From Candidatus Gastranaerophilales bacterium (GTDB lineage Bacteria > Cyanobacteriota > Vampirovibrionia > Gastranaerophilales > Gastranaerophilaceae): DNA of 41,120 nt. The translations under genes were made by a program, and so were the position numbers. Under the pieces are notes generated by a model. The model was not told the origin of the DNA. It ran no database searches and was given only the letters and a program-made list of their open reading frames with translations. The stretch is from assembly GCA_905236055.1 (NCBI GenBank), contig CAJOOA010000081.1, forward strand, positions 1-41,120, written 5' to 3'. Shown one piece after another: positions 12,033 through 41,120 of the stretch (positions are counted from its first letter, which is position 1; each line of letters opens with the position of its first letter).

Positions 12033-12329
12033 TTAAGCAAGTCCATGCAGAATTTTATTAAGTTCAGCGACTGTCATAGCACCGAGTTTTTGGATTTCCA
12101 TTTGAGATCTTTCGGCCATTTCGTTATTTTGAGCGGGAATATTTTTATCTTCAATTTTTTCTTCAATTTTTTGTGCAAGTTTTTGCTTTTCTACTTCAAG
12201 ACGGGCCTTATCAACATTTATATCCCCTGTTGGTCTGATGTTAAGCTGCTTTAATTCCTGCAAGATTCTCACATACTCAGGATTATTTAAGTTTGAGTTT
12301 CCTCCTATTGCACCAATTGCTTGAATCAT
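12033..12329 (-). CDS. Small coiled-coil protein of unknown function
   Basis: A 98-residue protein starting MIQAIGAIGGNSNLNNPEY, with a charged helical middle (KARLEVEKQKLAQKIEEKIE) that looks like a short coiled coil and a C-terminus MTVAELNKILHGLA. AAGGAG sits well before the ATG, which supports a real gene. It converges on the preceding gene with no base between the two stop codons. Small Gly/Asn-rich starts followed by a helix occur in flagellar or secretion-related small proteins, but nothing here proves such a role. Confidence 0.7.
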   Translation of the reverse strand: MIQAIGAIGGNSNLNNPEYVRILQELKQLNIRPTGDINVDKARLEVEKQKLAQKIEEKIEDKNIPAQNNEMAERSQMEIQKLGAMTVAELNKILHGLA

Positions 12330-12439
12330 AAAATACTCCTTTTTCCGTTCTGGTAATTTCTATAACGGCATATTTTGCAAAAACTTTAGGATTTTTAACA
12401 AAAATGTTACAAAGATTAACATTGACGTAGTTTTTATAG

Positions 12440-38993: not shown

Positions 38994-39809
38994 ATGTCAG
39001 TTACTTTGGAGCATAAACAAGGATTAATTGCAGGAGACGGCTTATTACCCGTCAAAATGGCTCAGCACGCTAAAGAAAACGGGTTTGAAGTGGTTTGTAT
39101 TTCGCTTTCCGGCGACAATTACAAAAAGCTAAAAAAATATTGTTCGAGAGTTTACTCCGTCTGTCCCGGGGAAGCTCTGAAAATAGAGAAAATTTTAAAA
39201 GATGAAGGTATAAAACAACTTACTTTTTTGGGCAAAGTAAGTAAAACTATTATACTTAAACGCCCCAAATTTGATTCTAAAGCCATAGATTTTGTCAGAA
39301 AGGCGATACGGCTTAATGATGACAAAGTAATGCTTATGATTATTGAAGAACTCGAAAACATAGGCATCACGGTTCTTGATCAAACATTATTTATAAAAGA
39401 GCTTATGATTCCATCAGGGGTGTTAGGTTCTGTTCAACCGAATCAAGTACAAATTGATGACGTAAATTATGGCTATTGGCTGGCTAAAGAAACTGGCAAG
39501 CTTGACATTGGTCAATCGGTTGTTATACGGGACAAAATGATTATGGCGGTCGAGGCAATCGAGGGAACGGATAAATGTATTAAAAGAGGCGGAAAACTTG
39601 CCAAAAGACGTGCTCGCATTATTAAAGTTGCAAAACCGTCTCAGGATAAAAGATTTGATATTCCGGCAATCGGTCTTAAAACTCTAAAAACAATGAAGAA
39701 ATATAAAGCCGATTTAATTGCGGTTGAAGCCGGAGAAACAATCATAGTCGATAAAGATAAAGTTGTAAAATACGCAAACAAACACGATATCGTAATTATG
39801 GCGGTTTAA
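38994..39809 (+). CDS. lpxI: UDP-2,3-diacylglucosamine pyrophosphatase LpxI
   Basis: LpxI hydrolyses UDP-2,3-diacylglucosamine to lipid X in lipid A synthesis, replacing LpxH in many bacteria. The 271-residue protein follows the family (formerly DUF1009): GLIAGDGLLPVKMAQHAKEN, LTFLGKVSKTIIL, NLDDK-type segment LNDDKVMLMIIEELE, DQTLFIKELMIPSG, GQSVVIRDKMIMAVEAIEGTD with the catalytic Asp region, and a C-terminal GLKTLKTMKKYKADLIAVEA. Its TAA overlaps the ATG of lpxB by one base, so the product of one enzyme passes to the next from a coupled pair. Confidence 0.92.
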   Translation: MSVTLEHKQGLIAGDGLLPVKMAQHAKENGFEVVCISLSGDNYKKLKKYCSRVYSVCPGEALKIEKILKDEGIKQLTFLGKVSKTIILKRPKFDSKAIDFVRKAIRLNDDKVMLMIIEELENIGITVLDQTLFIKELMIPSGVLGSVQPNQVQIDDVNYGYWLAKETGKLDIGQSVVIRDKMIMAVEAIEGTDKCIKRGGKLAKRRARIIKVAKPSQDKRFDIPAIGLKTLKTMKKYKADLIAVEAGETIIVDKDKVVKYANKHDIVIMAV

Positions 39810-40927
39810 TGAAGAAGATTTTTGTTATTACCGGAGAATATTCAGGCGACATACACGGAAGCAGGGTTGTGAGTTTAATCAAAGAAAAAACCCCTGATAT
39901 TCAGGTGGAAGCTATTGGCGGAGAAAATCTTAAAAATGCAGGGGCTAAGCTTTTTTGTGACCATTCCAAAATGGCGGCTTTTGGATTTAGTTTTCAAATT
40001 GCAGTCGAGCATTTAACTTTGGAAAAAAGAGTTTGCGAATATATTCTCAATGATTACAAGCCCGATTTGGTTCTGCTAATTGATTATGGCGGTTTTAATC
40101 TTAGAATCGCGGAACGGCTTCACGGAAGCGGAATAAAAGTAGTTTATTATATTCCGCCTCAAATATGGGCAAGCAGAAGATGGCGAATTAATAAAGTTAA
40201 AAAATTTGTCGATAAAGTTTTATGTATTTTTCCGTTTGAAGTTGATATGTATGAAAAATACGGAATTGATGTTCATTTCTGTGGGCATCCGCTCGTAAAA
40301 CAATTGCCTCCAAAAGCCGATAAACAAGAATTTTTTGAAAAGCACGGACTTGATTCTTCACGGCCTTTGGTTTCAATTTTCCCCGGTTCAAGGGCTTTGG
40401 AACTTGCATTTCTTGCGGAAACATTTATTGAAGGTGCAAAAAAATTGCAGGTAAAACATCCTGAACTTCAGTTTTGTATTTCACACGCGCCTAATCTGAG
40501 TAATGACATATTTGACAAATATATCCAAAATACTGATTTTAAAATTATAAAAGGTGACAATCAAGCATTGTTGAGCGTATCTGATGCATTAATTTTGGCA
40601 TCGGGAACAGTGGCTCTTGAAGCCGCTCTTTATCAGACACCTATGATTATCGGATATAGAGGACCTTGGCTCCTTTACTTAATATATTTGTTTGTAAGGT
40701 GCATTAAAAATGTTTCTTTGCCAAATATTATTACGGGAAAAGATATTGTTCCGGAATTAATTCAAAATAAGTTTACTTCGGAAAATATATGTTATGAAGC
40801 AGAAAAATTACTTTACGATAATAATTACAGAACAAATTTTATTGAACAATTAGCCAATGTAAAAGAACTTTTGACCGATAAATATTCAGCAAAAGAAGCT
40901 GCAGACGCCATTTTAGAATGTTTATAA
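39809..40927 (+). CDS. lpxB: Lipid-A-disaccharide synthase
   Basis: LpxB (GT19) joins lipid X and UDP-2,3-diacylglucosamine into the lipid A disaccharide. The 372-residue protein shows VITGEYSGDIHGSRVV at the N-terminus, MAAFGFSFQI, LLIDYGGFNLRIAERL, VVYYIPPQIWASRRWRINK, FCGHPLVKQLPPK, VSIFPGSRALEL and SGTVALEAALYQTPMIIGYR. Length is typical. Translation is coupled to lpxI. With LpxI it shows that the organism makes lipid A and so has an LPS-type outer membrane. Confidence 0.95.
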   Translation: MKKIFVITGEYSGDIHGSRVVSLIKEKTPDIQVEAIGGENLKNAGAKLFCDHSKMAAFGFSFQIAVEHLTLEKRVCEYILNDYKPDLVLLIDYGGFNLRIAERLHGSGIKVVYYIPPQIWASRRWRINKVKKFVDKVLCIFPFEVDMYEKYGIDVHFCGHPLVKQLPPKADKQEFFEKHGLDSSRPLVSIFPGSRALELAFLAETFIEGAKKLQVKHPELQFCISHAPNLSNDIFDKYIQNTDFKIIKGDNQALLSVSDALILASGTVALEAALYQTPMIIGYRGPWLLYLIYLFVRCIKNVSLPNIITGKDIVPELIQNKFTSENICYEAEKLLYDNNYRTNFIEQLANVKELLTDKYSAKEAADAILECL

Positions 40928-40987
40928 AATCGCAAAATCCAGGTTAGAATTTTATGTAAACTTTTGTAACAATTGGCCCGAGATGGC

Positions 40988-41014
40988 TAAAGTTTTGGGC
41001 TAAAGTGCCGTAAT
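40988..41014 (+). promoter_or_regulatory. Near-consensus sigma-28 (FliA) promoter
   Basis: TAAAGTTT (40988-40995) matches the FliA -35 element in all eight positions; 11 bases later GCCGTAAT (41007-41014) begins with the GCCG core of GCCGATAA. Spacing equals the consensus. The start codon of the next gene is 38 bases downstream with AAAGGA in between. Confidence 0.65.
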
Positions 41015-41052
41015 ACATGGTGCAAAAGGGACAAACATAAAGGAACGTTGCT

Positions 41053-41120
41053 ATGGGTATGGCATCCTCACAAGCCAGACTCTTGATGCTGACATCGAGA
41101 TTGCATGACGTTGAGTTAAA
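41053..41120 (+). CDS. Start of a probable flagellum-linked protein (partial)
   Basis: The last 68 bases encode 22 complete codons, beginning MGMASSQARLLMLTSR, with AAAGGA eight bases before the ATG. This start resembles a group of coiled-coil proteins from uncultured gut bacteria with unknown role, and its small-residue-rich amphipathic helix is like flagellar axial-protein N-termini. The sigma-28-type promoter directly upstream supports a flagellar or motility link. The rest lies outside the window, so the assignment is open. Confidence 0.6.
   Translation, partial: MGMASSQARLLMLTSRLHDVEL

Follow-up and report, generated by a model that had tools for sequence, protein, structure and literature searches.

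What does a sigma-28-type promoter serve in an order of bacteria in which most sampled genomes lack flagellin? The question is raised by the end of a contig from a Candidatus Gastranaerophilales bacterium (CAJOOA010000081.1, assembly GCA_905236055.1), where such a promoter stands before a gene that the contig end cuts short. The stretch analysed, called the window here, is 41,120 nucleotides long and is the whole of contig C81 in a genome of 1.76 Mb and 119 contigs. An earlier note, made from the sequence, had recognized the promoter and predicted that the gene behind it encodes a late flagellar or motility product. In the explanation that we favor (probability about 0.62), sigma-28 (FliA) and the response regulator RpaB drive a regulon independent of the flagellum, whose products are possibly substrates of a second type III apparatus.

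A sigma-28-type core is combined with an upstream HLR1-like box

The promoter gap of 125 bases, from lpxB (39809-40927; LpxB match of 264 bits) to the ATG at 41053, contains in order the direct repeat TATGTAAACTTTTGTAAC, the -35 element TAAAGTTT, an 11-base spacer (tgggctaaagt), the -10 element GCCGTAAT and the Shine-Dalgarno sequence (Table 1). The sigma-28 consensus of E. coli is TAAAGTTT-n11-GCCGATAA (PMC2859248). In this case, the -35 element agrees with it at 8/8 positions and the spacer has the same length, while the -10 octamer agrees at 5/8, namely GCCG and one of the final four bases. The commoner -10 forms in the window's genome are GCCGATAT and GCCGTTAT. Dinucleotide shuffling of the gap, taken as 128 bases, never reached its score in 2000 trials, in keeping with the claim that the element is very unlikely by chance. 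The assignment as a sigma-28-type promoter is well supported by sequence, and the ATG, 38 bases beyond the promoter end (41014), is suitably placed behind a Shine-Dalgarno sequence, as the earlier note had said; the direct repeat upstream had been overlooked there.

That repeat has a period of 10 base pairs and, in reverse complement orientation, matches at every position the HLR1 element, the 18-base-pair site KTTACAWW-N2-KTTACAWW of the cyanobacterial response regulator RpaB (PMC13421787, PMC11633204). Counted from the predicted transcription start, itself placed by promoter geometry, the box occupies -66 to -49 (start at 41019) or, at the other extreme, -69 to -52 (start at 41022). RpaB activates from HLR1 at about -66 to -45 (PMC13421787). 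The positions left free in the query, compared over 81 exact composite sites of GTDB contigs, revealed the second half-site, and the resulting box, WWTGTAAM-NN-WWTGTAAM, lies at a single fixed distance from the core. The full 18-base-pair consensus was present in 55/117 composite sites, where the chance of an independent half-site alone is about 0.0004.

Table 1 Features of the promoter region, of a second promoter in the window and of the second export locus (window positions unless a locus is named)
Feature	Position	Strand	Basis
HLR1-like box TATGTAAACTTTTGTAAC, direct repeat, proposed RpaB site	40953..40970	+	exact 18-bp consensus match
-35 element TAAAGTTT	40988..40995	+	sequence, genome-wide counts, shuffles
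-10 element GCCGTAAT, after 11-base spacer	41007..41014	+	sequence, genome-wide counts
Predicted transcription start, 5-8 bases 3' of the -10 octamer	41019..41022	+	promoter geometry
Shine-Dalgarno AAGGA	41040..41044	+	sequence
81-base repeat common to the ends of C81 and C17 and the starts of C46 and C67	41040..41120	+	sequence overlap
5' end of SQAR-family gene (MGMASSQARLLMLTSRLHDVEL...), cut by contig end	41053..41120	+	SQAR profile match
Second sigma-28-type promoter TAAAGTTTTTGCAAAATATGCCGTTAT	12362..12388	-	motif search of window
HLR1-like repeat TGTTAATCTTTGTAAC of second promoter, no exact HLR1 match	12406..12421	-	sequence
98-amino-acid protein MIQAIGAIGGNSNLNNPEYV... behind second promoter	12033..12329	-	no Pfam match
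Second export operon, flagellin-less genomes included	L256:4081-10067; L257:6365-13514; L258:4156-10135; L259:8136-14236

The composite promoter persists before a gene family in genomes without flagellin

The truncated gene belongs to a family whose members start like MGMAASQARLL, and for which we coined the name SQAR. Contig and gene stop at 41120 because an 81-base repeat, identical in two SQAR paralogues, broke the assembly; the gene body would be either the 414- or the 400-amino-acid paralogue on contigs C46 or C67. Within a sample of 241 genomes of the order, the SQAR profile matched in 241/241, mostly in several copies each; toward the most distant families the matches weaken to E 1e-5, and coiled coils may cross-match there. 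SQAR proteins gave nothing above cut-off in Pfam or NCBIfam and no convincing sequence match in the PDB, and none was found in viral contigs.

FliA was present in the window's genome (TIGR02479, 227 bits versus a cut-off of 189.6; NF005413 was also over cut-off), as the earlier note had expected, and was over cut-off in 235/241 genomes. Flagellin was found in 97/241, leaving 144 flagellin-less. Because the six genomes with FliA under cut-off (G017, G020, G026, G028, G202, and G222) are all flagellin-positive, judged by E-values, all 144 flagellin-less genomes keep FliA. The core motif was also enriched in one flagellin-less genus (g20), with 52 matches versus 7 for the control (17 genomes, summed by hand).

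At the SQAR genes themselves, a core of at least 12/15 was found upstream of 28 of 29 genes from flagellin-less genera, with spacers of 11 or 12 bases (Fisher p ~1e-33). The score used was tolerant of spacing and replaced a rigid weight matrix that had failed on 12-base spacers. The genes, at least one per genus, were taken from the best profile matches, and the genomes share ancestry; the p-value is therefore too optimistic, whereas the occurrence of the promoter across a dozen genera stands without it. One upstream region of genus g1 in this run (L220) rested on a wrong start codon. The HLR1-like 10-base-pair repeat reached at least 11/12 in 19/29 of these upstream regions versus 2.1% of shuffles. 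Paralogues with MG[ML]A-SQAR starts carry the same promoter. Neither outcome that the earlier note had named as refuting its reading, a genome lacking fliA or an element missing before orthologues, was seen.

Since the sigma factor, the gene family and the promoter all persist where flagellin is absent, neither promoter nor regulon appears to be tied to flagellar motility. The finding that the same arrangement precedes SQAR even in flagellin-less relatives suggests that both regulators have taken on a non-flagellar role in these bacteria, which are related to Cyanobacteria and do not photosynthesize.

The promoter probably serves a regulon of some 20-30 genes

The exact core string occurs six times in the window's genome and zero times as the reversed pattern. 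Extending the core with ACATG and allowing up to three mismatches gave 19 sites, and a degenerate core gave 30, versus none for either reversed pattern. A core pattern with the spacer wrong by one base returned background only (48/44 versus 36/47), and the composite pattern with the box moved by one base found one site. These counts point to a regulon of some 20-30 genes in this genome, five SQAR promoters among them. The second promoter in the window lies on the opposite strand (Table 1).

Among the long regulon proteins, several without an obvious signal peptide (L027, L090, L109, L111, and L120) have D-x-[DN]-x-[DN]-G stretches, similar to EF hands, at their start. Others form very small conserved families of 41-60 amino acids (L001, L044, L063, and L047).

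Across GTDB contigs, the exact composite promoter was found in at least 116 stretches. Where a title gives a lineage, it is nearly always Gastranaerophilales, Melainabacteria or Cyanobacteria, and many other titles read just "uncultured bacterium" or "Bacterium". The composite promoter also occurs in a few metagenome-assembled genomes titled "uncultured Acinetobacter" (L101, L129, L134, and L152), which are probably mislabelled Gastranaerophilales. Composite sites number 10-28 per genome in the window's genus, 4-23 in genera g15 and g21, and 0-3 in most others of the 241 genomes.

In the mechanism that we propose, the composite promoter would join a FliA core to a box at a fixed upstream position, where an activator of the OmpR family would bind, the RpaB orthologue being the most likely candidate. 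FliA-RNA polymerase would read the core and be recruited or stabilized by RpaB centered near -58. A second type III export apparatus, which has no filament and is kept throughout the order, may take the products as late substrates.

A second type III export locus may receive the regulon products

An export gate protein of the FHIPEP family (FlhA/SctV) is encoded in 241/241 genomes. The match scores form two classes, ~865 bits where the genome has flagellin and ~730 bits where it has none; both classes occur together in some of the flagellin-positive genomes. Between genera, the second FlhA-like protein shows 81-90% identity, and its identity to flagellar FlhA is ~37%. Its locus comprises FliE-, FliF-, FliH- and FlhA-like genes and one without assigned likeness, with a FliI-like gene in one genome. 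The FlhA-like protein scored under the flagellar and injectisome equivalog cut-offs, at 705.8 (<772.1) and 594.7 (<692.25), as did the FliF-like and FliI-like proteins under both of theirs; the FliE-like protein passes the fliE equivalog model. The locus thereby falls between the flagellar and injectisome models and is predicted to be a divergent type III export locus. The flagellar flhA and the second flhA adjoin and are convergent in a genome from another family (L237, G012 contig C11). Partial flagellar gene sets have been described in Melainabacteria, where Soo et al. called them unable to encode a functional flagellum (PMC4040986) and Di Rienzi et al. listed the shared flagellar genes, with filament, cap and junction missing in MEL.A1 (PMC3787301).

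That regulon products pass through this second apparatus is a hypothesis with modest support. In its fullest form, these gut relatives of Cyanobacteria would secrete SQAR and co-regulated proteins, switched on by FliA and the old light/redox regulator RpaB, through a type III apparatus that derives from the flagellum and has no filament, a picture that we offer tentatively and would not back at even odds. A serious competitor, itself somewhat short of an even chance, accepts the flagellum-independent regulon and takes its products to be cytoplasmic or envelope proteins unlinked to type III export. Consistent with it, no homologue of SQAR was found outside the family in the searches above, fold comparison was non-specific, and two products of composite sites (L045 and L141) start like Sec signal peptides. 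It fits less well with the polar N-termini, free of a signal peptide, of most regulon members, with the universal non-flagellar export gate, and with the paired terminal helices of SQAR. In the predicted structure, helices 2-50 and 353-413 flank a variable middle, and one paralogue is modelled likewise. This layout resembles that of flagellar axial proteins, yet generic coiled coils match as well, and we draw no family from it. No fold was assigned, as the VIA-align scores against flagellins (Z 8-9) were exceeded by some against unrelated coiled coils (up to Z 12). Foldseek matched neither SQAR model to any entry at E 0.001.

RpaB is the likely reader of the upstream box

The window's genome encodes three OmpR-type regulators, on C61, C96 and C78. 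One of these is an RpaB equivalog (NF045944, 353.2 bits versus a cut-off of 330); the remaining two (L170 on C96 and L171 on C78) scored 217 and 203 bits, under that cut-off. We proposed RpaB as the reader because the box is an exact HLR1 consensus, lies at an activating position and has only one RpaB equivalog to match it in this genome. RpaB therefore likely binds at 40953-40970, and from the same features we infer both its binding and activation of the promoter.

Regulators of the OmpR family recognize half-sites that are much alike, and with three such regulators at hand the sigma-28 core could be real and the box read by L170 or L171 instead. We consider this unlikely, given the exact consensus at an activating position and the single regulator of the three that passes the equivalog cut-off.

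The regulon appears to be mostly non-flagellar

The prediction of a late flagellar or motility product was mostly not borne out. The window's genome is itself flagellin-positive, with nine flagellin-like (flagellin_N) genes. Of the two examined, the motif precedes the C18 flagellin, next to flhA, and is missing before that on C56. No motif was seen before three flagellins of genus relatives or before the main flagellins in four loci of other families, and the FliD gene of one relative lies about 143 bases downstream of a composite site. The suggestion that flagellins share the element thus holds for the C18 flagellin, with one FliD beside it, and fails for the others. Control is not common with the flagellins examined, and SQAR is present in 241/241 genomes versus 97/241 for flagellin. 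In three genomes of the genus (L292, L293, and L294), a flagellin gene without the motif has as its neighbor a 42-amino-acid protein (MYSMWPGCYSF...) whose own composite promoter is complete.

An ordinary late flagellar (class III) promoter, with an accessory protein switched on by FliA after hook completion, would account for the canonical core, the flagellin-positive host, the motif before one flagellin and one FliD and the 42-amino-acid neighbor of flagellin genes, but it is improbable and largely refuted by the conservation of SQAR and promoter in flagellin-less genomes, besides the motif-free main flagellins examined and the fact that most regulon members look unrelated to flagella.

Several points weigh against a flagellum-independent regulon under RpaB and FliA with possible export. 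Other genera have an 11- or 12-base spacer and drifting -35 and -10 elements, and not all orthologues are canonical. A sigma-28 promoter was looked for before the second export operon and none was seen. Three FHIPEP matches were counted in the window's genome and only the flagellar one was located. The co-occurrence of SQAR and FlhA is uninformative, as both are universal, and structural comparison of SQAR is not specific. The alikeness of OmpR-family sites means that RpaB is not the sole possible reader. Finally, the use of FliA and the binding of RpaB are predicted from sequence, and export is a hypothesis.

Relation to known systems

Each part of this system is of a known kind: a sigma-28 promoter, HLR1 with RpaB, and type III export. 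Their combination, and its persistence without flagellin, was not found in the literature searched, which covers few subscription papers. RpaB, RpaA and NblS were reported in 2013 to be kept in Melainabacteria without photosynthesis, and the authors noted that they may have another function (PMC3787301). The composite promoter marks out specific genes as candidate RpaB targets in a non-phototroph, and the role of RpaB there therefore becomes testable. It would also explain why lineages without flagellin retain FliA and some of the flagellar export genes, and points to a large set of possibly exported, uncharacterized proteins in common gut bacteria.

Among sigma-28 promoters of E. coli, aer is the closest parallel and a precedent for activator dependence, being alike in core, 11-base spacing and an activator site just upstream. 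The activator at aer is CRP, centered at -49.5 (PMC2859248), whereas here an HLR1-type direct repeat near -58 is fixed before dozens of genes. The cyanobacterial RpaB/HLR1 regulon shares the 18-base-pair box, the activating position and the RpaB equivalog (PMC13421787, PMC11633204), but consists of photosynthesis genes, whereas the core here is of sigma-28 type and the order is described as lacking photosynthesis (PMC3787301). In non-flagellated Legionella, sigma-28 has likewise been kept after loss of the flagellum, and a role at other genes has been suggested for it; in L. oakridgensis just FliA and FlgM remain (PMC5655016), in contrast to the order-wide family, many paralogues and retained export apparatus described here. 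Lastly, the partial sets of Melainabacteria contain the same kinds of genes (fliF, fliH, flhA, fliI, and others) without filament genes and were read as a non-functional flagellum or genome reduction under way (PMC4040986, PMC3787301), whereas we find a conserved second locus with an FlhA-like protein 81-90% identical between genera.
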